DNA from: a virus
DNA: 40,718 nucleotides
Direction: 5' to 3' (one strand)
Virus record (IMG/VR): IMGVR_UViG_3300045885_000294
Location: 1-40,718 of that record
Positions 15,895 to 35,529 of the stretch are shown in pieces. A program made the position numbers and the translations under genes. Numbering within the stretch: position 1 is the stretch's first letter; each line of letters opens with the position of its first letter. Under the pieces are notes generated by a model. It worked only from the letters and a program-made list of their open reading frames with translations. It was not told the DNA's origin and did no database searches.

Positions 15895-16598
15895 TGATGC
15901 TCGGTGAGAAGGGATTCCCGGTGGTCACGGTCAAAGACGGCTGGGTGCCGGGCGAGCTAGCGGCGCGGCTCGCCCGCTACAACCCGCGGACCGAGTTGGG
16001 GCGCGTCATCCGGGACTGCTTCCAGTACCTGCCGCCGGCGATGGCCGGCGAGCTTCTGGACCGTGTGAGCAGCGTGGTTGTCCTGCAGTCGGCGCTGAGC
16101 ATCCGCGTCCTGCGCGCCTGCAGCGAAAGCACCCATCCATTTCTAGACAATCGTGGCCGTTGCCTCGAGTGCCATAAATACGCCGTCGAGGACTGGGGCG
16201 AGGTCGGACACAAGGTCATCACGACGACAGGCGTGGGCTTCCTGGTGGACGCCTGGCAGGGGTCGACCGAGATGGAAAACATGAAGTACCACGGTCTCGG
16301 GACGGGCTCGACGGCAGAGGCGGCGAGCGATTCGGCGCTGGTGACGGAGTTAACGACCGAATATACCGGCAACGTGCGCGCCACCGGCTCGACCACCGAG
16401 GCGAGCGCGACCGTGTTTCGCTCAGTCGGCTCCAACCTGCTCGATGGCACGCCGGGCGCGGCGCTGCGCGAGCACGGGCTGTTCTCGGCGTCGTCTGCGG
16501 GCGTGCTCTGGGACCGGACGGTCTACGCGGCGATCACGCTGAGCTCAGGCGATACACTTGAAAGTACGTATGACATGTCAGCATCAAGTGGAGGTTAG
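15879..16598 (+). CDS. Phage tail/fibre protein with recoded C-terminus
   Basis: 239 residues from ATG 15879, chosen for the GAGGAGGGTC ribosome site 8 bases upstream; an ATG at 15849 lacks one. Residues 130-239 match a common phage structural domain (KYHGLGTGSTAEAASDSAL, then TEYTGNVRATG, EHGLFSASSAGVLWDRTV and a final TYD...GG). The last 12 codons (16563-16598) use AT-rich codons unlike the rest of the gene and end TYDMSASSGG. An orphan copy encoding TYDMTGSTGG lies past the homing endonuclease at 17177-17212. The C-terminus has thus been replaced by the mobile element while the product stays full length. Confidence 0.8.
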   Translation: MVSDVMMLGEKGFPVVTVKDGWVPGELAARLARYNPRTELGRVIRDCFQYLPPAMAGELLDRVSSVVVLQSALSIRVLRACSESTHPFLDNRGRCLECHKYAVEDWGEVGHKVITTTGVGFLVDAWQGSTEMENMKYHGLGTGSTAEAASDSALVTELTTEYTGNVRATGSTTEASATVFRSVGSNLLDGTPGAALREHGLFSASSAGVLWDRTVYAAITLSSGDTLESTYDMSASSGG

Positions 16599-16602
16599 TC
16601 TG

Positions 16603-17154
16603 TCATACAGACCGAGAATGGTTCAGGAGCTTCATTTGGGAGCGGTAGCCATCCAGCCAGGTTTTGTCGGCCTTGAGGCTCGGGACTCGCAGGCGGGCTA
16701 TAAAGTCCAGTGCGAGGTCCGCCTGGGCGGTCTTGATCCGCATGTAAGGTCGGATCTGCTCCAACAACCCCGCTGCGGATTCGCCGTGCGTCTGCCAGAA
16801 ATAGCCCTGCTGATGGTGACGGGCGAGACGCGGCTTGTTGTGAATCGCTCCCAGGCCCGTTACCTCAATCAACCACTCCAGGACGCCGCGGTGGGTGTTC
16901 GTGATGTTTACCCGCAGCGTCAAGCTCAGTTCCGACCGGCGGTAAAGCATGATGCTCCCCTCGCCGTCGATAAGCCCGGCGAGATAGGCCGCGTCCGTAG
17001 GCGAGAGTTGAACGCAAGTCCGGCTCGTCCGATAGCGGGCTGCCCGCTGGCACTCAAGGGAACAGAACCGCTGATAGCGATAAGTTCCTCCACTTCGCGG
17101 AACCTCAAACGATTTCGCGCAGGCCTCGCAGGTTTTCTCTAGGAGTGTTCGCAT
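16603..17154 (-). CDS. LAGLIDADG homing endonuclease, free-standing
   Basis: 183 residues, the only leftward gene in the late operon. One LAGLIDADG motif is clear (YLAGLIDGEGSIML, about residues 57-70), so it probably works as a dimer; the Asp/Glu of the motif bind the catalytic metal. An N-terminal zinc-finger-like segment (CEACAKSF ... RFCSLEC) may help DNA binding. The gene is inserted precisely at the 3' end of the upstream tail gene. No intron or intein elements flank it: only 4 bases separate its stop from the host gene's stop. A weak leftward promoter may lie at about 17160-17175 (GGTAAACT read on the minus strand). Confidence 0.93.
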   Translation of the reverse strand: MRTLLEKTCEACAKSFEVPRSGGTYRYQRFCSLECQRAARYRTSRTCVQLSPTDAAYLAGLIDGEGSIMLYRRSELSLTLRVNITNTHRGVLEWLIEVTGLGAIHNKPRLARHHQQGYFWQTHGESAAGLLEQIRPYMRIKTAQADLALDFIARLRVPSLKADKTWLDGYRSQMKLLNHSRSV

Positions 17155-17176
17155 GTCGCGAGTTTACCACATCTTA

Positions 17177-17212
17177 TCGACGTACGACATGACTGGTTCG
17201 ACGGGCGGGTGA
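17177..17212 (+). pseudogene. Displaced original 3' end of the upstream tail gene
   Basis: Read in frame these 36 bases encode STYDMTGSTGG and a TGA stop, the same peptide ending as the gene stopping at 16598 (STYDMSASSGG), but in GC-rich codons. It has no start and is cut off from its gene by the endonuclease. It includes GGGCGGGTGAG, the apparent ribosome site of the next gene (GTG 17216), which may explain why it was kept. Confidence 0.85.
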
Positions 17213-17215
17213 GCC

Positions 17216-17488
17216 GTGGCGCTGCTACCTGCAGGAAAGCTGCTCGTCCTCCAGGGCTACACGGTGGACCCGGCCGCGAACGGTATCCAGCTGCACTTCG
17301 TCTGCAGCGACCCCGGTCCGGGGCTGCCCACTGACTATTACCTGTTCATGCCGCACGACGAGCTCGAGGGCGCGACGAACCTGACGCAGCTGCGGACGCT
17401 GATTAACGGGCGCATTGACAGGTATATCGGGACGGACGCGGTGATTGACCGTGTGAACCAGATAACCGGGGAGACGTTCACGGTATGA
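17216..17488 (+). CDS. Hypothetical structural-operon protein
   Basis: 90 residues, GTG start 3 bases after the orphaned tail-gene stop, showing that this gene originally followed the tail gene directly. An alpha/beta pattern is visible: LVLQGYTVDPAANGIQLHFVCSD then a helix (NLTQLRTLINGRIDRYIG). Overlaps the next ATG by 4 bases. No family recognised. Confidence 0.65.
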   Translation: MALLPAGKLLVLQGYTVDPAANGIQLHFVCSDPGPGLPTDYYLFMPHDELEGATNLTQLRTLINGRIDRYIGTDAVIDRVNQITGETFTV

Positions 17489-18021
17489 GCGACTGGCCTG
17501 CGCCGACCTCGTATACCGGGCTGGAGGGCGGCTTCTACTCAACAGCGATGGCTTTGGCCTGCCTCAATGGGGTCGCGCCGACCAGTACTGCTTGGCCTTC
17601 GGCCAACCACGCCTTCTATATCCCCTGGCGCGTTCCCGTCCCGGTAACCGTCTACAAAATGGCGACTGGCTCAGGGGCGACGACGGGAAGCAACAACTTT
17701 GATGTCGGCATTTACGACTGCTTCGGCAACCGCCTGGTGAGTAGCGGCGCGACGGCAAAGGGTAACAGCGTCGAGCACATCATCGACGTGACGGACACGC
17801 GCATCGGGCCGGGACTGTATTACCTGGCGATGTCGGCGGACAACACGGGTAATTACGTGATGGTCACGCCGGCCGGCACGTCGCCTGTTCCGCTCCAAAA
17901 GGTGAGGCTGTACGGCGTCCTCCAGCAGGCATCGGCCTACACACTGCCGAATCCGGCGACGTTCGCAGCCTCGACACAAGTAACAATTCCATCCGTTAGC
18001 GTCTGGTTCAGGTACTACTGA
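17485..18021 (+). CDS. Beta-rich surface/fibre protein, paralogue A
   Basis: 178 residues, ATG overlapping the previous stop. It shares an extended pattern with the next gene: YxPWR..., a GAT-x-x-GS/GN-x-x-DVGIYD motif, LVSSG.TA, a TDT..GPG.YYLA block and a LPNP...C-terminal section. Such sequences suggest a jelly-roll binding domain on the tail. Compared with its paralogue it has lost or changed much of the interior, so the pair is old. Confidence 0.65.
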   Translation: MSDWPAPTSYTGLEGGFYSTAMALACLNGVAPTSTAWPSANHAFYIPWRVPVPVTVYKMATGSGATTGSNNFDVGIYDCFGNRLVSSGATAKGNSVEHIIDVTDTRIGPGLYYLAMSADNTGNYVMVTPAGTSPVPLQKVRLYGVLQQASAYTLPNPATFAASTQVTIPSVSVWFRYY

Positions 18022-18022
18022 G

Positions 18023-18577
18023 ATGGACTGGCCCAATGTCGCTCTCCCGCCACCGGCAATCCTAACGCCGTACAGCCTGGACACGATGGGCCTTGCAGTA
18101 GGAGCCGGCACGGCAGGAAATGATCTCGGCAGCGCGGCATCGGGCTCCTGGTCGGTCAACAACAAGGCGTATTTCTACCCGTTCCGGCTCCAGTCCCATG
18201 CGGTTGCTTATCAACTGCTTTTCTGGGTAGGTGCCACATCATCCGGCAACATCGACGTTGGTATCTACGACTCGCAAAAGAATCTGGTTGTTTCGTCGGG
18301 CTCTACGGCGATGAGTGCCACCGTTAACACCGTGCAGGAACTTAACATCACGGACACCGCGCTGCCGCCCGGCGACTACCTGCTGGCGGGCGCATGTTCC
18401 ACCACGGGCGGAACGTGCTTTCGAGTTGCCTCAAACGACGAATTGGCCCTAGCGTCCTATCCCGTTTACGAGCAGACTTTGGCGCTTGCGTTACCTAACC
18501 CCTGTACGCCTGTGGCTTGCACGGACACTGCGCCGATGCGCTGGGTAATCGGCATCCAGTTCGTGCCCACGTTCTAG
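18023..18577 (+). CDS. Beta-rich surface/fibre protein, paralogue B
   Basis: 184 residues, ATG 1 base after the preceding stop. Clearly related to the gene before it (FYPFRLQ..., GATSSGNIDVGIYD, LVVSSGSTA, DTALPPGDYLLAG, ALPNP). Cysteines CTPVAC and ACSTTGGTC might form disulfides or bind metal. Tandem divergence of receptor-binding modules is the simplest explanation; its target is unknown. Confidence 0.65.
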   Translation: MDWPNVALPPPAILTPYSLDTMGLAVGAGTAGNDLGSAASGSWSVNNKAYFYPFRLQSHAVAYQLLFWVGATSSGNIDVGIYDSQKNLVVSSGSTAMSATVNTVQELNITDTALPPGDYLLAGACSTTGGTCFRVASNDELALASYPVYEQTLALALPNPCTPVACTDTAPMRWVIGIQFVPTF

Positions 18578-18586
18578 GAGCCTGCG

Positions 18587-18940
18587 ATGACGCTCTCCGC
18601 TCATGCCACCGGCACCCAGACCGCGACGGGCGGCGGCGTCGAGGACTTCCTGAGCTCGCCGAATGTCGCCGGCACGTTCCAGCTCTACGTGGACACTAAC
18701 GCGATGGTGGCGGGCGACGTGCTGGAGCTAAAGGTGTATTGCATGGTGCTCACGGGCGGGACGCAGCGGGTGGCCTACTACCAGCGTTATGAAGGCGCGC
18801 AGCCGACGAACGACCTGATAAAGGTCAGCGTGCCGATCTCCACGGAGTTGGCGGAGACGAACGGCTTGCGCTTCTCGCTCACGCAGTCGGGCGCGGGTAC
18901 CGACAAGAACTATCCCTGGAAGCTGCTCCGCTGGACGTGA
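18587..18940 (+). CDS. Beta-rich tail-associated protein
   Basis: 117 residues, ribosome site TAGGAG overlapping the previous stop. A short beta-sandwich-like protein with TFQLYVDTNAMVAGDVLELKVYC, a pattern seen in several small phage tail-operon proteins, and a C-terminal region LRFSLTQSGAGTDKNYPWKLLR. No membrane segment. Role inferred only from its place in the fibre block. Confidence 0.6.
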   Translation: MTLSAHATGTQTATGGGVEDFLSSPNVAGTFQLYVDTNAMVAGDVLELKVYCMVLTGGTQRVAYYQRYEGAQPTNDLIKVSVPISTELAETNGLRFSLTQSGAGTDKNYPWKLLRWT

Positions 18941-18945
18941 CCTAG

Positions 18946-20292
18946 ATGGCCGCTCCCGGCATCCGCCACATCGAGATCCTGCTGCCGACGGCGGCAGGGA
19001 TTACGGAGACCATCTCTCCCGGCGGGACGCTGACGACTGCCGGGGCGCTGACCGTCAAGGCCCAGCAGCGAGCCGGCCTGGGCGGGACGCTCAGCTCTGC
19101 AGGTTCCCTGGTCCGCAAGGCGACGCAGGCGCTTGCCGGCACGCTGACCTCGAGCGGCGCGCTGGTCCGCAAGGCGACGCAGTCCCTGGCGGGGTCGCTC
19201 GCGACGGCGGGCAGCCTGATCGTTTCGCGCGTGGTCACGCAGACCGGCGGCGGCACGTTGACCACGGCCGGCGCGCTGGCGGCGAAGGTCCTGCAGGTCT
19301 ACGCGGGCACGCTCTCGACGTCGGGCGCTCTCGTCCTCGAGGCGGGCAAGGCGCTCGGCGGCACGCTGACCAGCGCTGGCGCTGTCGCCCTGCGCGTCCA
19401 GGCGGCGTTCTCAGGCACGCTCGGCACGGCGGGCAGTCTGACCGCCTCGCGGGTGCAGCGCATCGCCCTGGACGGCACGCTGGGCACCGCCGGCAGCCTG
19501 GCCGTCGAGGTCGCGCGCAGCCTGGCCGGGACGCTCGGGACGGCAGGGACGCTGGCGACCGATATCCAAAAGGCGCTCGCTGGCACGCTGGCCTCGAGCG
19601 GCTCGCTAGTCCGGCGGACCTCCAGGACGTTAGCCGGCACGCTGAGCACGAACGGCACACTCGCCGTCCGCGTGACGCAGAGCCTGGCAGGAACCCTCGC
19701 GACGTCCGGCGCGCTCGAAGTCCAGAAGCTGACCGGCATTTTCCACCAGGACGCAGCCGGCACGTTCAGCACTAACGGTTCGCTTGCCTGGAGAGTCCTG
19801 CAGGGATTAGGCGGGACGCTCGCTACGGCTGGAAGCCTGACGCGCCGCCTGGACCTGCATCTGGCGTTCTCCGGCACGCTTGGGCTGGCCGGCGACTTAG
19901 TGCGTCGGCTGGATCTCCATCTCAGCTTTGCCGGCACGCTGGCGACGGCCGGCTCCGTCATCCTCTCGCGCGTCCAGGGACTTGCCGTGGGAGGGACGCT
20001 GGCGACGGCCGGCGCGCTCGTCGTCTCCCGTGTCACCGCGCTCCAGGTCAGCGGCACGCTCGGGCTGGCCGGCGAGGCGACGCTGGTTGAGCCGGAGATA
20101 AGCAACCCTGCGCCGCCGGTCCTCCTCGAGGCCAGCTACCTGCCGCTCCTGGAGCTTGCCGCGGCGCATACTGCGACCATCAACCTGCAGGGACGGCTGA
20201 CGCCTACGATCGCACTCCCGGCCAGCTACGAGCCGGAGGAACTACACGCCGGCAGCGCGGGAATTCTGGAGCTTACAGGGAGTTACGGGTAA
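18946..20292 (+). CDS. Repetitive structural protein with 19 GTL-x-x-(A/S/N)G-x-L repeats
   Basis: 448 residues. From about residue 26 to 375 the protein is 19 imperfect repeats of 17-23 residues with core (A/G/S)GTL-(T/S/A/G)-(T/S)-(A/S/N)G-(S/A/T)L, separated by short spacers such as VRKATQSL. The regular GTL..AG.L rhythm suggests a beta-solenoid or stacked beta-hairpins. The last 70 residues are different (repeated LEASYLPLLEL / LPASYEPEEL / LELTGSYG), probably a cap or attachment. It probably forms an elongated fibre or spike. It ends overlapping the next gene (TAATG). Confidence 0.75.
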   Translation: MAAPGIRHIEILLPTAAGITETISPGGTLTTAGALTVKAQQRAGLGGTLSSAGSLVRKATQALAGTLTSSGALVRKATQSLAGSLATAGSLIVSRVVTQTGGGTLTTAGALAAKVLQVYAGTLSTSGALVLEAGKALGGTLTSAGAVALRVQAAFSGTLGTAGSLTASRVQRIALDGTLGTAGSLAVEVARSLAGTLGTAGTLATDIQKALAGTLASSGSLVRRTSRTLAGTLSTNGTLAVRVTQSLAGTLATSGALEVQKLTGIFHQDAAGTFSTNGSLAWRVLQGLGGTLATAGSLTRRLDLHLAFSGTLGLAGDLVRRLDLHLSFAGTLATAGSVILSRVQGLAVGGTLATAGALVVSRVTALQVSGTLGLAGEATLVEPEISNPAPPVLLEASYLPLLELAAAHTATINLQGRLTPTIALPASYEPEELHAGSAGILELTGSYG

Positions 20293-20636
20293 TGGCAGAG
20301 CAGGCGGATATCACGGCGGATGACGGCTGGTTCATCGGCGAGGACAAGACGCTCGAGTTTACGGTCCTGGAGGCGGACGGCTCGGCGCAGGACCTGAGCG
20401 GCTGGGCGATCGAGTGGGTGTTGAGGCGGGAGCCTGGCGGCAGCGCGCTCGTGACCAAGGAGGTCGGTTCCGGAATAACCGTCTCGACGCCGGCGAGCGG
20501 CGTCCTGCAGGTTGCGGTGGCCGACGTCGACACGGACCCGCTGCCGGCCGGCCGGTACTGGCACGCGCTGCGCCGGGCGGACAGCGGCACCGAGGCGGTC
20601 CTGGCCTACGGGCAGGTGGCGCTGCGGGCCCGCTAG
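20292..20636 (+). CDS. BppU-like N-terminal / Ig-like tail protein
   Basis: 114 residues, ATG overlapping the stop of the repeat protein. The pattern DKTLEFTVLEADGSAQDLSGWAIEW...VLRREPGG and later PAGRYWHALRRAD matches small phage beta-domain proteins related to the N-terminal part of upper-baseplate proteins. It is the last structural gene before a promoter at 20653. Confidence 0.65.
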   Translation: MAEQADITADDGWFIGEDKTLEFTVLEADGSAQDLSGWAIEWVLRREPGGSALVTKEVGSGITVSTPASGVLQVAVADVDTDPLPAGRYWHALRRADSGTEAVLAYGQVALRAR

Positions 20637-20652
20637 CCGCTGGATTGCCTGC

Positions 20653-20661
20653 TGGTATAAT
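20653..20661 (+). promoter_or_regulatory. Extended -10 promoter for the second lysin unit
   Basis: TGGTATAAT: a perfect TATAAT preceded by the TG of an extended -10 element, 17 bases after the stop of the last structural gene. No good -35 is visible at 17-18 bases. The expected start is near 20668, giving a leader containing the hairpin at 20694-20718. Confidence 0.6.
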
Positions 20662-20693
20662 CCGCGCGGTGGCTTAGCCATTTGCCGGTGCAG

Positions 20694-20718
20694 GGGCGGG
20701 TAGTGCGAGTACCCGCCC
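20694..20718 (+). promoter_or_regulatory. Perfect 9-bp stem-loop in the leader
   Basis: GGGCGGGTA, a 7-base loop, then TACCCGCCC. No T-run follows, so it is not a standard intrinsic terminator. It sits between the extended -10 promoter and the small ORF and lysin start, where it could stabilise the transcript or modulate translation. Confidence 0.6.
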
Positions 20719-20751
20719 ACTGCGTTGCACCAGAAGGGAGTGAGCCTTCCG

Positions 20752-20826
20752 ATGCCCGTTGATCTCATCACCACAGGAGCGGGCGGGGCAATGCCCTGGC
20801 CGCTGAATTCCGGAGGCGGAGGCTAG
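20752..20826 (+). CDS. Possible 24-residue leader peptide
   Basis: ATG with AAGGGAG about 13 bases upstream, ending 13 bases before the lysin start. The product is MPVDLITTGAGG... with a glycine-rich end. It may be a genuine small protein or an upstream ORF that couples translation to the lysin. Support is weak, from position and a ribosome site only. Confidence 0.35.
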   Translation: MPVDLITTGAGGAMPWPLNSGGGG

Positions 20827-20839
20827 CAGAGCCTCGCCT

Positions 20840-21418
20840 TTGCTGAGGAAATTCGCCCCGCTGGGCTTGCCGGCGGGAATGGTGGGCTTTGCCCTTGTGT
20901 TCATGGCCGTGTACGCAGCGCGGCCGGCAGAGTCTCCTCCCCGGGCCGTCCCCGGGCACATTGCGCAGGACGCCGCCCAACCGTCGACGACGCCCTGGCC
21001 GTCGTTGCTGACGGACGAGCGCGCAGCCAGGCCGCCGCAGGGACTGCTGAAGGTGGCGACCTGGACGCCTACTCCGACGGCTACACCGACGCCCACGGCA
21101 ACTCCAACACCGGAGCCGACGTGGACGCCGGAGCCCGTGTACGTCTACGAGGAGCCGGAGTACGTGGCGCCAGCGCCGTCAGGGGACTGGCAGATTGCCG
21201 TCTGCTCGCTGGCCTGGTCCTGCAGCGAGGCGCTCTACGTCATAGCGCACGAGTCCGGCGGCAACATGTGGGCGACAAACCCGAGCTCAGGCGCCTGTGG
21301 GCTATTCCAGCTGCTGCCTTGCCCCGGCTACGACCTGCAGACGCAGCTGGCCGGAGCCTGGGCCAAGTACGTGGATGGCGGCTATTCGTTCTGGAGACAT
21401 TGGTTCCAATGGTGGTGA
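20840..21418 (+). CDS. Secreted or membrane-anchored lysozyme-like (SLT-type) lysin
   Basis: 192 residues from TTG 20840; ATG 20879 with GGCGGG upstream is an alternative. Residues 10-28 form a hydrophobic signal anchor. Residues 75-110 are a Thr/Pro linker with TPT repeats and EP pairs. Residues 120-192 are a compact lysozyme/transglycosylase-like domain: CSEALYVIAHESGG (probable catalytic Glu in HES), NPSSGACGLFQLLP and a terminal WAKYVDGGYSFWRHWFQWW. It should cut peptidoglycan from outside the membrane, unlike the cytoplasmic GH25 enzyme. It might aid lysis, virion entry or cell-wall remodelling in lysogens. The linker type is common in Chloroflexota secreted proteins. Confidence 0.75.
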   Translation: MLRKFAPLGLPAGMVGFALVFMAVYAARPAESPPRAVPGHIAQDAAQPSTTPWPSLLTDERAARPPQGLLKVATWTPTPTATPTPTATPTPEPTWTPEPVYVYEEPEYVAPAPSGDWQIAVCSLAWSCSEALYVIAHESGGNMWATNPSSGACGLFQLLPCPGYDLQTQLAGAWAKYVDGGYSFWRHWFQWW

Positions 21419-21433
21419 GAACCTGAAGGGCGG

Positions 21434-21916: not shown

Positions 21917-21958
21917 ATCTCATCTCCTCTGAGAAATAGGGTTGGGGGGAATGGGGCC

Positions 21959-22168: not shown

Positions 22169-22203
22169 GGCGGCTCCTTGCTCTTGTTATCCCAAGGCTA
22201 CAT

Positions 22204-22220: not shown

Positions 22221-22275
22221 GCAAGGCGAGCACGCGGCCGTGTCAATCAGGCGACACCGGCTGTCGCGAGATAGG

Positions 22276-26804: not shown

Positions 26805-28886
26805 ATGGACGACGAGCTGGTCAAGCAGTTTGCGGCGCTCTTCCGCGGCCGCAGGGACGCGTACGGACTGAGGACAGGAATGACGGTCAAGGAGCCAGTC
26901 GGCAGGTCGACCTACCGGGCCCACCTCGAGGGCCGGGAGGCCATTGGCATCTTCCCAGTGACCGATGACGGGACCTGCCACTTTGCCGCCGTCGACTTCG
27001 ACCGCGTCCGCGGCAACTTCACGCCGCAGGAGATTGATTCCCTGGCCCTGCACGACGCCGGGCTCTTCATGGAGCAGTGCGACCGCTTCGGCCTCAACCG
27101 GCTGTGGCTCGAGCGCAGCCGGCGCAAGGGCTGCCACGTCTGGGTGTTCTTCGACGGCGCGGTCAAGGCGGCAGAGATCCGGCGGGTGTTCAGCGCCGCC
27201 CTGGCGGCCGCGGGCATTACGCAGTACGAGCTCTTCCCCAAGCAGGACACGGTCTATCCCGAACTGGAGCCTCTCGTTGACAAAACCTTGCAAGACCTGC
27301 GGCACCTTATTTCGAGCTCACCCGAAGGGGCTGGCCAATTGCCCGCTGCATCGGCGAGCAAGGAAGCCGAACGGTGGAATGATTCAGAAACCGTGTCAGG
27401 TTTGCGGCGTACTGTTCGAGACGGAAGCCAGCCGGACACGCTTCAAGACGACATGTCCCGTTCATCACCGTGGGGGGTACACGCGCGATCGACATTACTG
27501 GTGGAAGGGTGGTCGAGAGCAACGGGGGAACGGTTATATCGGGATCTTGTTACCGGGCCACCCTATGTCCGACAGCAAAGGGGTCGTTTTGGAGCATCGC
27601 CTGGTAGCGAGTCAGATGCTAGGACGGCTTTTGACAGGGGACGAAATCGTGCATCACAAGGACCACAACCGAGCGAACAACTCACCCGACAATTTGCAGA
27701 TATTGTCGAGAGTCGAGCACTCGCGGTTGCACAGATTAAATCCACCCCACGCTTCGGAAACTATTTGAATCTCCCCTACCCCGGCGGGAACAATGACGCC
27801 GGGCGGCAGATGATGCTCGACCGGGCGACGCACGCGCCGGTCCTGCTGCTCGACTTCCTCAAGCTGGTCGAGCGTTTCCCCGCCGGCAGCCTCGGGCTGG
27901 TGCTCGACGAGCTGCCGGAGCAGCAGGACAGCGGGCCGCGCAGTTTCGGCCGGGTGAGGGTCGGCGGTGGCGGGCGCTCGAGCTGGTATCCCTGCACGGC
28001 GCCGTTGCTCAACGTCAACCTGCACGACGGCGGCGGCCGCAACGAGCTGGCGCTCGTGCTGGCCCGCCGGCTGCAGGCCTCGCCCCTGAGCGGGGCGGCG
28101 AAGGCGATTTACGACCAGTGGAACCAGGGCAACACGCCGCCGCTGTCGGAGCACGAGGCGGACCGCACCTGGGACTCTGCCGAACGTTACCAGGGGATGT
28201 TCTGCGAGAAGGTCCGCGAATGGCAGGGCGACGAGAGCGAGGTCATCCGCGCGACCTGCGTGGAGTCCTGCGCAATTCATCCCTCGAAGGGAATCGGCAG
28301 CTATCGCAGGCTGCGCAAGGAGCAGACGGACCCGCCGACCTACTATCTGGCGATCGGCGGCGAAGACACCCGCCTGACGGCCAACGAGCTATGGCGGCAC
28401 TCGGAGCTCTGCCGGGCTGTGATGACGCAGATCGACCGCGTCGTCCCGCCGATGAAGGACGCGCGCTGGCGGGACATCCTGCAGCAGCTGCTAGACGACA
28501 TCCAGGTCCTGCAGGTACCGGCAGAGATGACGCCGCGTGGCGAGCTCTGGTCGGCGATGTGCGACTGGTTCAGCGGCTCGTCCGAGCACGAGGAGGACAT
28601 CGAGGCGAAGCCGGTGCAGCGGGACGAGCATATCTACTTCAAGTTACGCGGGCTGGGCGCCTTCCTGCGCCGCCAGGGCCTGAATCCAAAACGGGATGTT
28701 ATGTGGGCGGTCCTCAAGGATCGTGGCGGTTGTAACGGCACGAGCAGATTCGCAGGCGTTGTGCACCGTGTTTGGTGGCTGCCAGCGGTGGAGTTTTCCG
28801 AGCAGACGTTACAGGACGAGCCGTTTTTAGATTCCCGTAACGCTTTAACTCGTAACGCGCGAAAAATTTCCGAGAACGATTTCTGA
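26805..28886 (+). CDS. Archaeo-eukaryotic-type primase with PriCT domain, interrupted by an HNH gene
   Basis: The frame is open for 693 residues, but only about 530 belong to the primase. Residues 1-150 hold the catalytic core of a TOTE-like primase: HFAAVDFDRV (metal-binding Asp pair), WLERSRRKGCHVWVFF (S-x-x-x-G-x-H), and ELFPKQD. The next core motif, FGNYLNLPY, comes only after an extra 163 codons (27264-27752) that encode, in another frame, an HNH nuclease. Then follow a PriCT-like section (GGGRNELALVLARRL) and a C-terminal DNA-binding region. Read in the primase frame the insert is low-complexity and charged. How active primase is made is unclear. Confidence 0.82.
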   Translation: MDDELVKQFAALFRGRRDAYGLRTGMTVKEPVGRSTYRAHLEGREAIGIFPVTDDGTCHFAAVDFDRVRGNFTPQEIDSLALHDAGLFMEQCDRFGLNRLWLERSRRKGCHVWVFFDGAVKAAEIRRVFSAALAAAGITQYELFPKQDTVYPELEPLVDKTLQDLRHLISSSPEGAGQLPAASASKEAERWNDSETVSGLRRTVRDGSQPDTLQDDMSRSSPWGVHARSTLLVEGWSRATGERLYRDLVTGPPYVRQQRGRFGASPGSESDARTAFDRGRNRASQGPQPSEQLTRQFADIVESRALAVAQIKSTPRFGNYLNLPYPGGNNDAGRQMMLDRATHAPVLLLDFLKLVERFPAGSLGLVLDELPEQQDSGPRSFGRVRVGGGGRSSWYPCTAPLLNVNLHDGGGRNELALVLARRLQASPLSGAAKAIYDQWNQGNTPPLSEHEADRTWDSAERYQGMFCEKVREWQGDESEVIRATCVESCAIHPSKGIGSYRRLRKEQTDPPTYYLAIGGEDTRLTANELWRHSELCRAVMTQIDRVVPPMKDARWRDILQQLLDDIQVLQVPAEMTPRGELWSAMCDWFSGSSEHEEDIEAKPVQRDEHIYFKLRGLGAFLRRQGLNPKRDVMWAVLKDRGGCNGTSRFAGVVHRVWWLPAVEFSEQTLQDEPFLDSRNALTRNARKISENDF
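27277..27768 (+). CDS. HNH homing endonuclease nested in the primase gene
   Basis: 163 residues from TTG 27277 (ATG 27378 is the fallback). Two zinc-ribbon-like halves, KPCKTCGTLF...NCPLH and KPCQVCGVLF...TCPVHH, show the upstream start is used. The HNH part is clear: EHRLVASQMLGRLL, EIVHHKDHNRANNSPDNLQIL and EHSRLH. Its TGA (27766-27768) overlaps TTG in the primase frame. The gene uses the +1 frame relative to the primase, is more AT-rich at its ends, and fills the whole insertion, so no room remains for an intron ribozyme. Confidence 0.88.
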   Translation: MTKPCKTCGTLFRAHPKGLANCPLHRRARKPNGGMIQKPCQVCGVLFETEASRTRFKTTCPVHHRGGYTRDRHYWWKGGREQRGNGYIGILLPGHPMSDSKGVVLEHRLVASQMLGRLLTGDEIVHHKDHNRANNSPDNLQILSRVEHSRLHRLNPPHASETI

Positions 28887-29145: not shown

Positions 29146-30753
29146 GTGACCGGTCCTCTCTTCAGCCATCCGAAGGCGCTCAAGATCTTCGGGCCGGCGG
29201 GCGCGGGCAAGACGCACGAGCTGGTCAACATCCTCGGCGAGCACGTTGCCGAGGAGGACTTCGACCTGCTGGACGGGATCATCGTTTCGTTCACCCGAGC
29301 GGCCGCCTACGACATAGCCAGGCGGGCCAACTCGGACCGCGCGCCGGGGCGCTACCACACGACGCTGCACGCGCTCTGCAAGCGCTACTACGGCTTTGAG
29401 GGCGAGATAGCGGATCTCCGGCTCAAGGAGTTCTTCAAGCAGGAGAACATCCCCTACGTCCCGGGGCGCGTCGGTGACGGCGAGGAGTGGGCGGCGAGCG
29501 ACGCCTGGACAAAGAGCGAGGGCGGCCAGCTGATGGCCTTCTTTTCGCTCTGCCGCAACCAGTTTCTCTCCATCGAGGAGGGACGGCGGCTTTATCCGCC
29601 GGGCGCCGGCGCCGAGCACTGGTGGGTGGGCAAAGGACTGGAGTCGGTCTGGAGCCGCTACCTGGCGTGGAAGCGCGAGAACGATCTCTACGACTTTACG
29701 GACATGCTCGAGTATGCGGTCGCCAACCCGCCGCAGCGGTCGCGCTGGGCGTTCTTCGTCCTGGACGAAGGGCAGGACGCCAGCCCGCTCCAATGGGCGG
29801 TGGCGCAGTCCTTCGCGGCGCGCGCCGAGGTCGTCTATCTCGCCGGGGATGACGACCAGGCCATTTACCAGTGGTTAGGGGCATCGCCGCGCGAGTTCCT
29901 CGAGGCGGCGACGTCACTCACAGACATCCTGCACGTCAATCACCGCTCCGGGCGGGCGATCGTCGACCGCGCCCAGGAGTTCATCCGCAAGAACAGGCAG
30001 CGCCAGGACAAGGCGACCATGGCAACCCGCGACGGCGGGGTTATCACGACCGTGGACATGCCGGACCTGGACATCAATGAATCAACCTTCGTGATGGCGC
30101 GGGCGCACTACGTGAACGAGCCGCTGATGCTCGAGCTGACGCGGCAGGGCTTTCCTTTCGTCGACAAGCGCGGCAAGTACGGCGTCAACGGCAAGGCTGC
30201 GACCGCCTACCACCGCTTTCTCTCCCTATATAGGGGCCAGGCAATCACTCTCGACGAGCTGCGCCTGCTGTACGACGCCATTCCCTCGGCCGGCCCGTGG
30301 CTCTCACGCGGCATCAAGAAGCGGCTCCGGGAGATGGACAAGGAGCAGCTGCGCTCGACGCACGTGCGCCTGTCCGACCTCACGAGCTACGGGGCAATGG
30401 AGCAGCTGGTCGACGCGGTCCGCGCCGAGGACGTGAAGCCGCTCGGCCGGCTCGGGCCGGAGGGGCAGGAGCGCCTGCAGTACCTGCGCAACGTGGAGCG
30501 CCGCTGCGGCGTGGACTTCCTGGATGAGCGGCGGGCCGCCCAGGTCTGCAGCGTGGGGCCCGTTCATTCTTTTAAGGGGCTCGAGGCCGACCACGCCGTG
30601 ATCCACGAGGCCTGGTCGCCGGCGGCGCTCAGGGAGGCCTCCATCGACCCCGAGCCGGAGAGAAGGGTCGCCTACGTCGCAATGACGCGCGCGAAGGACC
30701 GGATCACGTTTGTTCCAGGGCGCTGGGATCACGACTACAAGACGGTGCTATAG
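29146..30753 (+). CDS. Superfamily 1 UvrD/PcrA-like helicase
   Basis: 535 residues, GTG start with no clear ribosome site, so translation may be promoter-linked. Motif I GPAGAGKTH (residues 16-24), motif II FVLDEGQDASPLQ, motif III YLAGDDDQAIYQWLGA, a motif-IV-like NHRSGRAIV, motif V VHSFKGLEADH and motif VI RRVAYVAMTRAKDR are all present in order. It is a shortened SF1A 3'-5' helicase for phage DNA replication or recombination, next to the primase. Confidence 0.9.
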   Translation: MTGPLFSHPKALKIFGPAGAGKTHELVNILGEHVAEEDFDLLDGIIVSFTRAAAYDIARRANSDRAPGRYHTTLHALCKRYYGFEGEIADLRLKEFFKQENIPYVPGRVGDGEEWAASDAWTKSEGGQLMAFFSLCRNQFLSIEEGRRLYPPGAGAEHWWVGKGLESVWSRYLAWKRENDLYDFTDMLEYAVANPPQRSRWAFFVLDEGQDASPLQWAVAQSFAARAEVVYLAGDDDQAIYQWLGASPREFLEAATSLTDILHVNHRSGRAIVDRAQEFIRKNRQRQDKATMATRDGGVITTVDMPDLDINESTFVMARAHYVNEPLMLELTRQGFPFVDKRGKYGVNGKAATAYHRFLSLYRGQAITLDELRLLYDAIPSAGPWLSRGIKKRLREMDKEQLRSTHVRLSDLTSYGAMEQLVDAVRAEDVKPLGRLGPEGQERLQYLRNVERRCGVDFLDERRAAQVCSVGPVHSFKGLEADHAVIHEAWSPAALREASIDPEPERRVAYVAMTRAKDRITFVPGRWDHDYKTVL

Positions 30754-31278
30754 ATGGTTGAGCTGAAGAGAACGTCGGCCGCGGTCGCCGAGCCCGAGCC
30801 GGAGACTTCCGAGGCGGACCGCGAGTTCGAGGAGGCGGTCGCCTACTTTCACAAGCCGGACGACGTCGACCCCGCGCTCAAGCGAAAGTTGGCGCCGGTC
30901 GCTGCCAAGCAGCTCGAGGAGCTGCGCGCCCAGGCGGTAGCAAACATCCAGCGGCTCGGCAAAGGCGCCGCGCGGTGGGCGGAGAAGGGCTGGGAGTGGG
31001 AAGAGCCGGACTGGAGCGAGAGCCCGGAGAGCTGGCCACCGGTCGCGAAGATACTCTACCTGCTCGTCCTGGTCGACGTGCTGCGGGACAAGATTTCGAT
31101 GCTGCGCTATTACGCGGCCTGGCCGGAGTGGTGCCCGGAGTGCCACCCGGGCGAAAAGCGCGAGAAGGGTTATCGCGGCACGGCCTGCATCGTCCACTGG
31201 CCGGTCGCCAGGGCGGTCCGGCAGCGTGCGGCCGACTTCCTCGGTGTGGAGTTCCCGGAGGAGTTCGAGGATGCCTAA
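30754..31278 (+). CDS. Hypothetical replication-region protein
   Basis: 174 residues, ATG directly after the helicase stop. The acidic front is followed by helical segments; the later PEWCPECHPGEKR and GTACIVHWPVARA regions carry a Cys/His set that may bind zinc. Overlaps the next ATG by 8 bases. No family recognised. Confidence 0.6.
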   Translation: MVELKRTSAAVAEPEPETSEADREFEEAVAYFHKPDDVDPALKRKLAPVAAKQLEELRAQAVANIQRLGKGAARWAEKGWEWEEPDWSESPESWPPVAKILYLLVLVDVLRDKISMLRYYAAWPEWCPECHPGEKREKGYRGTACIVHWPVARAVRQRAADFLGVEFPEEFEDA

Positions 31279-31579
31279 GACGCTCACGCACCCGGTCCTC
31301 TCCGAACGAGAGTTTCAAGAGCAGGTCATGCAGCTCGCAAAGCTAACCGGCTGGGCCTGTTATCACACCTGGCTCTCGGTGCGTTCGACGGCCGGTTTCC
31401 CAGACCTGGTCCTCGTCCGGCCGCCACGCGTTTTGTTCGTCGAGCTGAAGACTGAAGGAGGAAAGGTCACGACGGCGCAGCGAGATTGGATGTTGAACCT
31501 TGGCGCCTGTCCCGGCGTCGAGGTCAAGCTATGGTGGCCGTCGGACTGGAATGACGTCGAGGAGACGCTGAAGCGATGA
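31271..31579 (+). CDS. VRR-NUC-type PD-(D/E)XK nuclease
   Basis: 102 residues, ATG inside the tail of the preceding gene. Core motif is complete: a helix with E (EREFQEQVMQLAKLTGW), then STAGFPDLVLVRPPRVLFVELKTE (PD...E-x-K) and a Q-containing helix (TTAQRDWMLNL). Single-domain VRR-NUC proteins in phages cut structured DNA such as Holliday junctions. Overlaps the next ATG (ATGA). Confidence 0.85.
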   Translation: MPKTLTHPVLSEREFQEQVMQLAKLTGWACYHTWLSVRSTAGFPDLVLVRPPRVLFVELKTEGGKVTTAQRDWMLNLGACPGVEVKLWWPSDWNDVEETLKR

Positions 31580-31860
31580 CGCACCTGACGCGGGCCGGAT
31601 TGGAGCGGGAGCTAGAGCTTCAGCGGGAGGATCTCTATCGGGTAGCCGCGCTCTTTCGCAAGGGCGACAAGCCCCTCCAGTCCTTGCGCCTACGCATCCG
31701 TCGCTACGGAGCCGCCTGCCGTGCGCTGGGCGAGTACGACGGGCGGGAGCAGGCGGGCAGCGACCGGGCCGACGCCATCCACGCCGCCTACGCGCTGGGC
31801 TTCGAGAAGGGCAAGGCTGTGGGGCGAGAGGAAGAGGAGCAGGAGGGCGGGCGCGGATGA
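31576..31860 (+). CDS. Hypothetical protein
   Basis: 94 residues, ATG overlapping the nuclease stop. Highly charged and helical, beginning with TRAGLERELELQREDLYRVAALFRKGD, ending with a Glu-rich tail. The TGA overlaps the next ATG, so it belongs to the operon. No known domain. Confidence 0.55.
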   Translation: MTHLTRAGLERELELQREDLYRVAALFRKGDKPLQSLRLRIRRYGAACRALGEYDGREQAGSDRADAIHAAYALGFEKGKAVGREEEEQEGGRG

Positions 31861-32156
31861 GCAACTACCCGTGGACGCCCGGCCCTTGGGTTGCTGATCG
31901 CCCCGAGGTCTGCGGGCCAGAATCAGACTTCGGCGTCTGGACAGAGGACGCAGGGCCGATCTGCTACGTGGGCGATCCCTACGAACGCGGAGATAATAAC
32001 CCGGTCGAAAACATGCGCCTGATCGCCGCCGCCCCCGACCTGTATGCGGCCCTCGACGCTCTGCTCGGCTGCGACAGCGTATGCGACTTCCACCGGCAAC
32101 TTGCCACCGCCGCCATGCGCAAGGCCATCGACCCCGACGAGGCCCCCGCACCGTGA
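31857..32156 (+). CDS. Conserved phage hypothetical protein (TPGPW...LIAAAPDL type)
   Basis: 99 residues. Carries two hallmarks of a widespread but uncharacterised phage/bacterial group: a front YPWTPGPWVADR and NMRLIAAAPDLYAALDALL in the middle. These proteins are found in early or accessory phage regions; function is not known to me. Its stop overlaps the next GTG. Confidence 0.7.
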   Translation: MSNYPWTPGPWVADRPEVCGPESDFGVWTEDAGPICYVGDPYERGDNNPVENMRLIAAAPDLYAALDALLGCDSVCDFHRQLATAAMRKAIDPDEAPAP

Positions 32157-32518
32157 GCGAGCCGCGCGAGGTAATGACGCTGCCCCAGGTCTGCGAGTAC
32201 CTGGCCATCTCGCCAAAGACTTGCCGCGCCTGGATGGCTGACGAAGGGCTGCCGTCCTTCACCGTCGGCTCGCTCCGCCGCTTCCTTAAGGCCGCCCTCG
32301 ACGAATGGCTTGCTGAGCGCCAGCGAATCGCCAAACTAGCCACAGAGGTGGAACCATGCGAGTCGTCAGGAACCGCTACGGCGGCTGGGACGCCATCGAG
32401 GAGGCCCCTGGCCGTGGTCAGCGCCGGCGAATCGTCCGCTCTGGCCGCACCCAGCGCGAGGCCAAAGAGCGACTCCGCGAAGCCGTGGGAGTCCCGCTGG
32501 GAAGCGGCACGCCGCTAG
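32153..32518 (+). CDS. HTH (MerR/excisionase-like) protein overlapping the integrase
   Basis: 121 residues in full. Residues 8-50 (VMTLPQVCEYLAISPKTCRAWMADEGLPSFTVGSLRRF) are a winged-helix excisionase-like motif as in small recombination directionality factors. From 32356 it overlaps the integrase in another frame for 163 bases, where its sequence becomes low-complexity; a shorter functional part seems likely. Directly before an integrase, it is a good candidate for a directionality factor. Confidence 0.65.
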   Translation: MSEPREVMTLPQVCEYLAISPKTCRAWMADEGLPSFTVGSLRRFLKAALDEWLAERQRIAKLATEVEPCESSGTATAAGTPSRRPLAVVSAGESSALAAPSARPKSDSAKPWESRWEAARR

Positions 32519-33432
32519 CCGACTACCTGCGCGAGTGGCTGCGCAGCAAGGAGCGCGCCCTGGCGCCGGGCACTTTCCGCAGCTACGAGCAGAAGCTCCG
32601 CACGGGTATCGTCCCGGTGCTCGGCGACGTCCGGCTGCGCGACCTCTCGGCGCCCATGATCGAGGAAGCCCTGGCCTTGATGCCGCAGAGTCAGCGCACG
32701 ATCCACAGCACGAAGGCGGTCCTCTCCACGGCCCTGCGCGCGGCGGTCAAGAAGAAGCTGATCGCCTCGAATCCCTGCGATGGCGTGGAGGGAGTCGTCC
32801 GCGGGCCACGGCCCGAGATTGTCTACCTAACGCTTGACCAGGCAGCAGCGCTCCTCGAGACCTGCGAGGCACGAGATGACGCTTACGGCGACCTGGTGGC
32901 GCTCGCCCTGCTCACGGGCATGCGCAAGGGCGAACTGCTAGGGCTGCGCTGGGGCGACGTCCGCCCTGCCGCGCTGCTTATCCAGCGCTCGCGCGTAGAT
33001 GCGCCGGGCGGACTCCTCGAGAAAGCGCCGAAGTCGAAGGCCGGCGTCCGTGCTGTACCGCTAGGTCCTGCAGGAAAAGCGACTCTCGCCCGCGCTCGAG
33101 CCCGCCTGGTAGCCGCGCCGCTGCCCACGGCCTACGTGTTCGACCTGCACTCCACGCAGCTCCAGAAGCACTTCAAGCGCATCCTCAGGCAGGCAGGACT
33201 TCCCTCCGTTCGCCTCCACGATCTGCGCCACACAGCCGCCACGCAGCTCGGCGCCGTAACCGACATCAAGACGATCCAAACGCACCTCGGGCACAGCTCG
33301 ATCGGCGTGACGGGCGACATGTACATGCACGCCGTGACCGCCCACGCGGTCGCCGCGGTGGAGGCTTACGAGGCGCTCCTGCAGGAATTCCGGCATGGCG
33401 GCGGCATGGCGAACGCCGCAGACATAGGCTAA
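32356..33432 (+). CDS. int: Tyrosine recombinase integrase
   Basis: 358 residues. N-terminal arm-binding region (RYGGWDAIEEAP...), core-binding helices at 55-150, and a catalytic domain with TGMRKGELLGLRW (first Arg), a Lys around KAPKSKAGVR, HDLRHTAA (His-x-x-Arg), LGHSSIGVTGDMYMH (His and Tyr nucleophile). All catalytic residues are present. The gene lies just before attP, as usual, so the phage is temperate and integrates by site-specific recombination. Confidence 0.92.
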   Translation: MRVVRNRYGGWDAIEEAPGRGQRRRIVRSGRTQREAKERLREAVGVPLGSGTPLADYLREWLRSKERALAPGTFRSYEQKLRTGIVPVLGDVRLRDLSAPMIEEALALMPQSQRTIHSTKAVLSTALRAAVKKKLIASNPCDGVEGVVRGPRPEIVYLTLDQAAALLETCEARDDAYGDLVALALLTGMRKGELLGLRWGDVRPAALLIQRSRVDAPGGLLEKAPKSKAGVRAVPLGPAGKATLARARARLVAAPLPTAYVFDLHSTQLQKHFKRILRQAGLPSVRLHDLRHTAATQLGAVTDIKTIQTHLGHSSIGVTGDMYMHAVTAHAVAAVEAYEALLQEFRHGGGMANAADIG

Positions 33433-33467
33433 TCTCGTGAATCTGAATCTGAGGCGCCAGCTGCGAA

Positions 33468-33500
33468 TGGTGGGCGGTGGGGGACTCGAACCCGCGAGAG
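33468..33500. other. attP: attP core: 3' end of a host tRNA gene
   Basis: The minus strand reads CGCGGGTTCGAGTCCCCC then ACCGCCC-A-CCA, the T-arm, acceptor 3' strand, discriminator and CCA of a tRNA, but no matching 5' part exists. Integrases commonly target tRNA 3' ends, leaving the gene intact. Its position 35 bases after int supports attP. A small GAATCT direct repeat at about 33440-33451 may be an integrase arm site. Expected tRNA 5' acceptor strand is GGGCGGT. Confidence 0.72.
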
Positions 33501-33580
33501 CCCTATCTGCCCGCTATTGCCCGAATCTACTACACCCGGCAAGAGCGCTCCAGAGCGGCATAGTTTCGCCGAGTTTCGGC

Positions 33581-34174
33581 ATGGGCGCGGCATGGCGGCC
33601 GCTGGCTGGTGTTGCCCTGGTGCTGGCCCTTGCTACCTGCCCGGCTGCCAACGCTGACGCGGGAGAGCCGCGCCCCACCTGGGCGACGGGCGCCGTGACC
33701 TACTACTTCAACCCGTCCGGCTACGTGGGGGATTTGACGCTCGGCGAGTTAGAGGCGGCCATTGTGGAAGGGCTGGCCGTATGGAACGACCGCGCTGCCT
33801 TCGAGCACGCCTACGGCGGGCTGACCGACGCGCCCGCCGACACCCACGACGGCGTGAACGTGATCGCCTTCGGCGAAGTGGGGAACATCGCGGGCGCCCG
33901 CTCTCGCGAGGCGGACGGCTGGATAACCGAGACGGACATCACTCTGCGGGCGAACATCCCCTTCAGCATCGGCGGCTGGTACGACCTTGCCTTCGTGGTC
34001 GCTCACGAAGCGGGCCACGGCCTCGGGCTGAGCCACACGGACACGTACCCCTGCGACACTCGCGAGGACCGCGCCGTCATGTGTGAGGGCTACGCCTTTG
34101 ACCCGGAGTGGGCCATTCACCCTGACGACGTCAGGCGCTTGCGCGACCTGTACCTGCCGGAGTTCGCCAGATGA
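33581..34174 (+). CDS. Secreted matrixin-like zinc metalloprotease (cargo gene)
   Basis: 197 residues from ATG 33581. A signal peptide (about residues 5-26) is followed by VTYYFNPSGYV and a helix. The zinc motif HEAGHGLGLSH (HExxHxxGxxH) lies in FVVAHEAGHGLGLSHTDTYP, and a Met-turn-like VMCEGY follows. This is the metzincin/matrixin arrangement. Placed immediately beyond attP, it is a typical site for lysogenic cargo that would be expressed from the prophage. It probably cleaves extracellular proteins; substrate unknown. Confidence 0.82.
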   Translation: MGAAWRPLAGVALVLALATCPAANADAGEPRPTWATGAVTYYFNPSGYVGDLTLGELEAAIVEGLAVWNDRAAFEHAYGGLTDAPADTHDGVNVIAFGEVGNIAGARSREADGWITETDITLRANIPFSIGGWYDLAFVVAHEAGHGLGLSHTDTYPCDTREDRAVMCEGYAFDPEWAIHPDDVRRLRDLYLPEFAR

Positions 34175-34217
34175 ACGCGCCTTCCTACAGCCTGGACGCG
34201 GCCGGCTAAGGTCCGGC

Positions 34218-34400
34218 ATGGCTGGCCGTCCTCGCCGCAAGGTCTACCGGCCGGACGAGGCGGCGCTCGTCCTCGGCATCAGTCGCGCCGCCGTCCTCAA
34301 ACTCCTCCACAACGGCGAGCTGCAAAGCGTTAAGGTCGGCCGCACGCGGCTCATCCCCGAGGCCAGCCTGCGCGCGCTCATCGCCAGGCTTGCCAGCTAA
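34218..34400 (+). CDS. Excisionase/MerR-like HTH protein
   Basis: 60 residues, ATG 34218 chosen because the upstream part of the frame lies in the metalloprotease end. Sequence RKVYRPDEAALVLGISRAAVLKLLHNGELQSVKVGRTRLIPEASLRALI is a winged-helix HTH of the 'helix_turn_helix_17'/Xis kind. It could be an alternative excisionase or a regulator of the cargo or packaging genes. Confidence 0.75.
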   Translation: MAGRPRRKVYRPDEAALVLGISRAAVLKLLHNGELQSVKVGRTRLIPEASLRALIARLAS

Positions 34401-34439
34401 ACGCGACCCTCTCGTTACGGCCAGCGGAAAATCCCTATC

Positions 34440-34498
34440 TATACGCGCACGCGTAATGTAACGACTCCTCGCGCGCGCGCGCGTTGCGTGCGTGTATA
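34440..34498. repeat. Long stem-loop with alternating purine-pyrimidine tracts
   Basis: TATACGCGCACGC (34440-34452) pairs with GCGTGCGTGTATA (34486-34498), 13 pairs with one G-T wobble, around a 33-base loop containing an alternating GC tract (34470-34484). It is the only sizeable structured gap before the packaging genes, so a cos or pac element or a regulatory hairpin is possible. Alternating CG/TA DNA can adopt Z-form. Confidence 0.6.
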
Positions 34499-34505
34499 TA
34501 TAGGA

Positions 34506-34871
34506 ATGCCGCAAGCTCCCTCGCGCCCATGCTCTAACGCCAGCTGTCCCAACCTACAGCCCTGCCCGGTCCACAAGCGTTCTCGCACGCACGACAATGC
34601 CCTGGTCGGTGGCTCTGGCTGGAAGTGGCAGCGCACCCGCGAGCGCATCCTTGCCCGCGACAACTACTGGTGCCGCTGCCTGCACCGCTTTGGTTGCGCG
34701 GCCAGCTGCTCGGGCGTCGCCACGCAGGTCGACCACATCGTCGAGCTCGCCGACGGCGGCGTCACCGCGGACGAAAACCTATGCTCTATGTGTTATAATT
34801 GTCACCAGAAAAAGACTAACCAGAGTAGGCGGATGCGTAGTGGCAGTCCCGATCAAGATCGAGGCCGGTGA
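34506..34871 (+). CDS. Terminase-adjacent HNH endonuclease with recoded 3' end
   Basis: 121 residues from ATG 34506. HNH signature: [48 protein letters not shown]. Proteins of this type lie beside terminase genes and assist DNA packaging and cos/pac cleavage. Its last codons from about 34780 become AT-rich, and the tail continues as [13 protein letters not shown]..., overlapping the inserted endonuclease. The original ending (CLQCHQVKTNAARV...) is orphaned at 35461-35529. The core zinc/HNH residues are retained, so it should be active. Confidence 0.85.
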
Positions 34872-35460
34872 TAGGTTTGGGCGGTGGGTAATTACGGAAG
34901 GGCGGGAGAACCCGAAGAGCCGCGCGATTCGAGCTCGGTGCGACTGCGGAACTGAGAAGACCGTCGATCTACACCATCTCCGTTACGGAAAGTCGCAGTC
35001 GTGTGGCTGCCTCGCAGTTGAACTCGCATCTGCTCGGGCCAAACACGGGCTCAGCCCTCACGGAGTTGGGGATCGGCGGGCTCAGGGTCATCCTCTTTAC
35101 GCGACATGGAACGGAATGAAACAGCGCTGCACTAATCCGAAAAACAATAGGTACCCTGGCTATGGAGGCCGAGGGATCGTTGTTTGCGATCGCTGGATGT
35201 CTTCTTTCGAGGCCTTCATTGCCGACATGGGCGAACGCCCTGCGGGTCAATCGTTGGATCGTATTGATAACGATGGACCGTACTCGTCGGAGAATTGCAG
35301 ATGGGCGAGCAAGTCTGAACAGTCTCGGAATCGACGGTACTCCGATGGCCGATTAGGTCCCTGCCGTGCCTGCGGGCGTGAGGATGGGAGATTTCGGCTG
35401 AATCTGTGCGGCTCTTGCTACATGAAGGACTGGAAGCGCAGGCGGGCTGGCTCGGCATAG
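34840..35460 (+). CDS. HNH/AP2-like homing endonuclease inserted in the HNH gene
   Basis: 206 residues from GTG 34840 (the start is set by the insertion; no strong ribosome site). Zinc segment with CDCG and SCGCL at residues 34-61; a catalytic region like phage HNH/AP2 proteins: [65 protein letters not shown]; and a C-terminal zinc finger CRACGRED...[10 protein letters not shown]. The gene overlaps the host HNH 3' end by 32 bases. Its TAG is immediately followed by the displaced original host end. AT-richer than neighbours, so acquired. Confidence 0.85.
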
Positions 35461-35529
35461 ATCTGCTTACAATGCCACCAGGTAAAGACGAACGCGGCGC
35501 GCGTAAGACGAGGACGAGCGAGACGGTGA
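35461..35529 (+). pseudogene. Displaced original 3' end of the HNH gene
   Basis: Starting right after the inserted gene's stop, the frame ATC TGC TTA CAA TGC CAC CAG reads ICLQCHQVKTN then AARVRRGRARR and TGA 35527-35529. The CxxCHQxKTN motif equals the ending of the HNH gene at 34795-34820 ([10 protein letters not shown]). It has no start and carries the junction sequence to the next gene (GTG 35526). Confidence 0.85.

Follow-up and report, generated by a model that had tools for sequence, protein, structure and literature searches.

Endonuclease genes at coding ends and inside a primase gene of a metagenome-derived phage: two possible insertion strategies

How can an endonuclease gene settle inside a conserved coding site and leave its host gene readable when no intron surrounds it? 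The question is raised by a phage genome of 40,718 bases, the whole of the metagenome-derived IMG/VR virus record IMGVR_UViG_3300045885_000294 (hereafter the window). Here three endonuclease genes of differing families lie within or against the coding sequence of other genes. A reading of the sequence alone had described them as three intron-less families sharing one insertion strategy, in which the element replaces the codons that it disrupts. The first part of that description is confirmed: each gene stands at the site reported for it, carries the LAGLIDADG or HNH motifs of its family and lies in a region where the Rfam RNA families, including group I and group II introns, gave no match even at E<=1. 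The three genes are as follows.

E1, 16603-17154, minus strand: LAGLIDADG endonuclease with an N-terminal zinc finger (phrog_5046, E=2e-24), convergent with its host gene.
E2, 27277-27768, plus strand: zinc-finger HNH_3 endonuclease (PF13392, E=4e-11; phrog_20891, E=2e-22), with a TTG start at 27277.
E3, about 34840-35460, plus strand: zinc-ribbon HNH endonuclease (phrog_374 family, E=1.4e-58), with a GTG start inside the 3' end of its host gene.

The idea of a single shared strategy did not survive our analysis. The reading that we favour, with a probability of roughly 0.77, is that free-standing homing endonuclease genes have used two strategies in this genome: E1 and E3 are gene-end swappers, and E2 is an out-of-frame insertion whose host frame has stayed open. 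Replacement of disrupted codons by the element is thus the best account of E1 and E3, and fails for E2, where no end is duplicated.

Doubled gene ends around E1 and E3

The genes and gene ends that carry this argument are listed here, with GC3 denoting the G+C content of third codon positions.

15849-16598, plus strand: host of E1, a tail protein gene of the phrog_5417 type (E=2e-12), whose 3' end at 16566-16598 is the putative element-borne copy.
16566-16598, plus strand: putative element-borne 3' end of the tail gene, TYDMSASSGG and a stop; GC3 0.30, against 0.84 in the rest of the gene.
17180-17212, plus strand: relict at E1, the apparent native 3' end of the tail gene, TYDMTGSTGG and a stop; GC3 0.80, with nothing joined upstream.
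34488-34871, plus strand: host of E3, a small HNH protein gene upstream of the packaging genes (phrog_144, E=3e-22; PF01844, E=3e-9).
34791-34871, plus strand: putative element-borne 3' end of that gene, its last 27 codons; GC3 0.45, against 0.80 in the rest of the gene.
35464-35529, plus strand: relict at E3, the apparent native 3' end, CLQCHQVKTNAARVRRGRARR followed by a stop, with the GTGA overlap with the next gene kept.

The tail gene that hosts E1 runs into ESTYDMSASSGG and a stop ending at 16598. A second version of this ending lies beyond the endonuclease gene, where the DNA at 17180-17212, ACGTACGACATGACTGGTTCGACGGGCGGGTGA, encodes TYDMTGSTGG and a stop. The two ends agree at 7 of 10 residues, and the codons differ at four of the six identical residues that can be compared; this likeness exceeds chance (shuffle p=7.5e-5). 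By their GC3 values, the joined end has a foreign composition and the abandoned end looks native. The sequence-only reading had spoken of AT-rich, element-derived flanks, and for the joined ends of E1 and E3 this description holds. Furthermore, in a relative that has no insert (L003) the gene end leads through TGA-CCC-GTGG into the next gene, and the E1 relict is followed by TGA-GCC-GTGG. The TGA-NCC-GTG spacing is identical to that of the empty site: E1 has kept the native junction to the next gene. The same TY...SGG ending, with the next gene immediately after it, is found in eight relatives of the tail gene.

At E3 a conserved CxxCH...KTN segment occurs twice, once in the joined end and once in the abandoned end, which begins CLQCHQVKTN. 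The codons differ at four of the eight identical residues.

Established homing-endonuclease behaviour suggests how such arrangements could arise. The endonuclease would cut an empty genome at a conserved site close to the host gene's 3' end, and repair templated by an occupied donor would bring in the endonuclease gene and, with it, the donor's form of that 3' end, resolving upstream before the gene end and downstream in a short shared segment. The host gene would be completed with donor codons and the endonuclease gene would come next in line, while the recipient's native end would stay behind as a short relict that supplies the start or the spacing of the following gene. The new end would not contain the native DNA site and should be immune to re-cutting. 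Cleavage, homing and the immunity of a recoded end are expected here by analogy, and we infer likewise that the endonucleases are translated and active as nucleases.

The nearest relatives of E1 return to the same place. The five closest that are full length (L190, L193, L194, L195 and L197; 40-44% identical, at five distinct loci) all stand at the 3' end of a tail gene of the phrog_5417 type, in either orientation, and an invariant GLIDGEG motif (in A3) is evidence that E1 belongs to the LAGLIDADG family. The hosts of the first four match phrog_5417; the host in L197 matches the tail-family profile at 6e-67, a profile that itself includes L197. None of the five phages gave a match to the window's terminase at 1e-5, an empty answer that is weak evidence. 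Outside the window, loci of the E2 or E3 family near such a tail gene amounted to one profile match only, beside L197's own. In L193 nothing but site sequence is left of the relict, and in L197 a decayed, frameshifted relict follows the endonuclease, decay of the kind that an untranslated remnant would show. L197 also holds a cluster of three endonuclease-like genes around one tail gene.

A different origin for E1 is brought to mind by L194, in which an insertion of about 240 nucleotides (L194:3056-3297) breaks into the tail gene at the codon position that the E1 joint occupies in the window. The insertion can form a GACUA/UAGUC pairing as in the P7 helix of group I introns and shows weak similarity to loci of other phages that contain introns. 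E1 might then be an endonuclease that has come away from a group I intron using the same site (collaborative homing), with the doubled end a by-product of intron loss; free-standing phage endonucleases that cut intron sites are known (F-CphI). We nonetheless judge this origin improbable, given that the L194 insertion matches no intron family in Rfam, that the window holds no intron and that relatives of E1 occupy the same site intron-less in L193, L195 and L197. Replacement of the gene end remains our reading of E1.

An endonuclease gene out of frame in a primase gene

The arrangement at E2 is of another kind, and involves two further features.

26805-28886, plus strand: host of E2, an AEP-TOTE-type primase gene (PF22548, E=7e-22), whose frame is open through the insert.
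About 27255-27752, plus strand: the insert, which the HNH gene fills.

The HNH gene, for which the label 'AP2-like' had been offered and has no Pfam support, lies in the +1 frame of the primase, with its stop inside the conserved FGNYLNLP codons. The site falls between the FPKQ and GNYLNLP (GNxxNLP) motifs, where six primase relatives have a short variable loop and no insert. There is no duplicated host peptide and no true repeat at the flanks. Our first flank screen, based on BLOSUM scores, was inflated by low-complexity, G+C-rich frames; the score of 75 that it gave E2 was an artefact of this kind and was discarded. The insert read in the host frame was also considered as an intein and rejected, as it has neither the Cys/Ser start nor the HN end.

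What distinguishes E2 is the state of the primase frame. Over the 163 codons of the HNH gene this frame contains no stop, against 6.8 expected when the element's own synonymous codons are permuted (p=5e-5), and the other genes of the window have no such depletion of stops. We propose that the HNH gene entered a variable loop and that the primase would be translated straight through the insert, gaining about 165 residues; we infer that the enlarged primase is active.

The open frame could instead be an accident of high G+C content, in which case the primase would be broken or would work in two pieces, like the nrdA gene of phage Aeh1 that mobE splits. Alternative frames often stay open in G+C-rich DNA: about 4% of 163-codon stretches taken from the remaining genes of this phage have no stop in the corresponding relative frame, the chance of such openness is about 2% when the phage's own codon usage is applied, and a review documents genes that are split and active (PMC2988022). 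Set against these figures are the far lower value obtained with the element's own codons and the uninterrupted frame itself, which leaves nothing to split the protein. Among 895 frame tests on the screened loci, moreover, only E2 and two others (L049 and L053) combine significance at this level with a frame that spans the host. We doubt that E2 is accidental or two-piece, and continue to read it as an out-of-frame insertion under an open host frame.

The two companions of E2 in the frame tests are inteins of phage DNA polymerase A (L049:1106-1783 and L053:2959-3630), which keep their own frame open and carry an HNH gene of the phrog_374 type in the +1 frame, the same relative frame as in E2. 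Another locus, L160, passes the open-frame test, but its open frame does not extend into a host gene and it was set aside. The permutation carries no information on the codon-aligned antisense frame, and antisense cases were left out of the scoring. One of these is Gordonia phage Barsten (L240:971-4078), in which a minor capsid product has intein-like ends and a LAGLIDADG match lies on the opposite strand.

Recurrence of doubled ends in other phages

The sequence-only reading had proposed searching phage genomes for endonuclease genes, of unrelated families, flanked by copies of a gene end that differ in their codons, and had named uniqueness to this genome as the result that would speak against it. 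We compared both flanks of 177 non-redundant endonuclease loci from viral contigs, anchoring the comparison on stop codons. Scores of at least 40 came from 6 of the 177 loci, compared with 5 of 1061 random intervals that lay away from the site in the window itself (p=0.002). At a score of at least 32 the counts were 7 of 177 against none of 1052 mismatched flanks (p=1e-6), and 25 of 1062 random intervals also reached this score, which indicates that internal repeats are a real background. Because control loci contain repeats too, rates are taken from the stop-anchored screen alone. The individual cases that we accept were chosen on visual inspection once the screen had been run, and are better taken as leads than as counts.

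The outcome of the screen is positive, and the duplications are not unique to the window. Gene-end duplications flank HNH or LAGLIDADG genes at about ten other loci. The end of ninB is doubled in L029 and L031 (over 45 residues in L029), and that of a cell-wall hydrolase gene in L038, L040 and L203. In the DUF7484 gene of L120, 15 of 16 residues are the same and 12 of 15 codons are different. Mirror cases, in which the 5' end is concerned, occur in L164 and L095 (DNA methylases) and in L088 (a glycosyltransferase). In L040 and in Vibrio phage 1.133.O the relict may also be read as the C-terminus of the endonuclease itself. Matches in L063 and L057 were rejected as non-coding or low-complexity repeats, and L128 and further weak stop-anchored matches were not accepted as cases.

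We also looked at 19 further loci from named phages and saw duplicated ends, clear or partial, at three of them. Vibrio phage 1.133.O and Escherichia phage vB_EcoM_APEC have a second copy of the 3' end of a MazG-like gene, and in Lactobacillus phage Lb (L260:1406-2569) it is the start of the SSB gene that stands on either side of an HNH gene. In Acinetobacter phage YMC-13-01-C62 an endonuclease gene follows the MazG-like gene, and the C-terminus of the endonuclease resembles the MazG-like end. Related HNH genes stand at the 3' end of the MazG-like gene in L243, L257 and L258 (Acinetobacter, Vibrio and Escherichia phages), each with a C-terminus resembling that end.

The Vibrio phages allow alleles to be compared. 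Close relatives of 1.133.O that do not have the element carry two natural alleles of the gene end, allele 1 in 1.266.O and 1.165.O and allele 2 in 1.233.A. The MazG-like gene of 1.133.O has allele 2 at four consecutive diagnostic sites and then allele 1 at every one of the other 12 sites in the upstream end; beyond the endonuclease gene, the relict has allele 2 at five of five sites. As judged from these sequences, this is the pattern that donor-borne replacement of the recipient's end should leave. There are exceptions, namely an allele-1 letter at the earlier position 260 and a mixture of alleles downstream of the relict, from which it follows that the recipient was not identical to 1.233.A.

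Since the window is a single metagenomic record with no near relative in the collections searched, its joints might be suspected of being assembly artefacts, a chimera of two related phages joined at gene ends. Such a chimera would need three independent joints, each with a correct stop and a native junction to the next gene, and the same architecture is present in isolated, cultured phages (Vibrio 1.133.O and Lactobacillus Lb). We regard an artefact as highly improbable.

Passive mosaicism is a more substantial alternative. Phage genomes are mosaic at gene boundaries, and an endonuclease gene that entered such a boundary by illegitimate or homologous recombination, with no cleavage, could leave an imprecise joint and with it a doubled end of two alleles. 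The enrichment over random intervals at the higher score, which is real but modest, would suit this explanation. It accounts less well for lineages that return to the same host gene, as relatives of E1 do at the tail-gene end in six phages and genes of the E3 type do at the MazG-like 3' end in Vibrio, Escherichia and Acinetobacter phages, or for ends that are restored in frame with a stop every time. On balance we think mosaicism an unlikely source of these joints, and prefer gene-end replacement in the course of homing.

Several observations weigh against this preference. The duplication at E3 is short, with 8 of 14 residues the same, and shuffling alone gives p=3e-3; because this similarity is modest, the case for E3 rests on its register with the CxxCHQxKTN motif and on the GTGA overlap. 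L190 and L195 carry a homing endonuclease gene at the gene end, yet have no relict. An unanchored search for repeated flanking peptides found no excess over random intervals, and the gene-end type is a minority, at about 4-6% of the 177 screened loci. No close empty-site relative of the window phage was found in the phage collection or among 19 viral records, and so donor and recipient alleles are inseparable for the window itself, unlike for the Vibrio phages. When 22 kb of the window was compared with the phage collection for near-identical sequence, nothing matched. Finally, E2 is a single example with no close primase relative for comparison: none was found with the primase C-terminus among viral contigs, or with the whole primase among the 19 viral records.

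Two other regions of the window deserve mention, one of which is a further endonuclease-like feature.

14661-14825, plus strand: a 54-codon HNH fragment (PF01844, E=1.4e-8 over residues 6-44).

The fragment is plausibly the remnant of a decayed endonuclease gene. It overlaps the start of the next, lysin-like gene. Head genes stand at both ends of the record (1-1075 and 39653-40405), which suggests that the record may represent a circular or permuted genome opened within its head region.

Known systems and what the loci may mean

In fungal mitochondria, mobile open reading frames that carry a C-terminus with them are described for atp6 of Allomyces macrogynus and for atp6, atp9, cox2 and nad3 of Glomus (PMC3630166). 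There a LAGLIDADG or GIY-YIG reading frame stands at the 3' end of a gene, a foreign C-terminus is joined in frame and the native C-terminus lies downstream, with divergent codons (PMC3630166). E1 and E3 have the same layout: each lies between two copies of a host end, of which the upstream copy is foreign and the downstream copy native, as judged by GC3 and by the junctions. The fungal elements differ in being mitochondrial and in replacing far longer ends, whereas the phage cases involve LAGLIDADG and HNH genes and include 5'-end versions.

For E2 the nearest likeness is the ShiLan domain, an out-of-frame HNH insertion in a methylase described in 2025 (PMC11855218). It too is a zinc-finger HNH gene in another frame of its host gene, with no stop in the host frame and no features of an intron or intein (PMC11855218). 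The host of ShiLan is a methylase and that of E2 an AEP primase, and for E2 the openness of the frame has been statistically tested. Furthermore, the first 11 host-frame residues of ShiLan resemble the peptide after the site (PMC11855218), a repeat that E2 does not have.

The free-standing endonucleases of phage T4 (segF, segG, mobA and mobE) also adjoin their target genes, spread by double-strand-break repair with co-conversion of the flanks, and in some cases overlap the upstream gene, according to the passages of a review that we draw on (PMC2988022). A doubled host end around the endonuclease is absent from those passages, and the mobE and mobA insertions that they describe split genes (PMC2988022). 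Group I introns and inteins likewise target conserved codons and protect the host product, but the regions of the window contain no splicing element, and there is no ribozyme core around the genes.

A literature search for a phage precedent of the gene-end type found none; it covered part of the literature and is not proof of absence. The suggestion that these genes form a distinct, under-described class goes too far, because replacement C-termini are well described in fungal mitochondria and the gene-end type is a minority among the screened loci. The gene-end strategy looks general, though what is seen here is not categorically new; the closest relatives are the fungal mitochondrial elements and ShiLan. 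A broader proposal, which we hold with slightly more doubt than belief, is that replacing gene ends may give phage homing endonucleases a general means of residing within essential genes, a third one next to introns and inteins. Lineages would be dedicated to particular ends (the tail gene, the MazG-like gene or ninB) and would swap 3' or 5' ends between phage lineages while homing, so actively spreading divergent protein termini.

Free-standing homing genes are usually pictured as harmless residents between genes. The loci presented here suggest that some of them invade coding ends and repair the damage with donor sequence. The Vibrio breoganii phages, with occupied and empty alleles in cultured relatives, make the question directly testable. 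If the suggestion is true, homing genes would be vehicles that exchange protein termini between unrelated phages, and this would explain some of the split or oddly ended gene calls in phage genomes.

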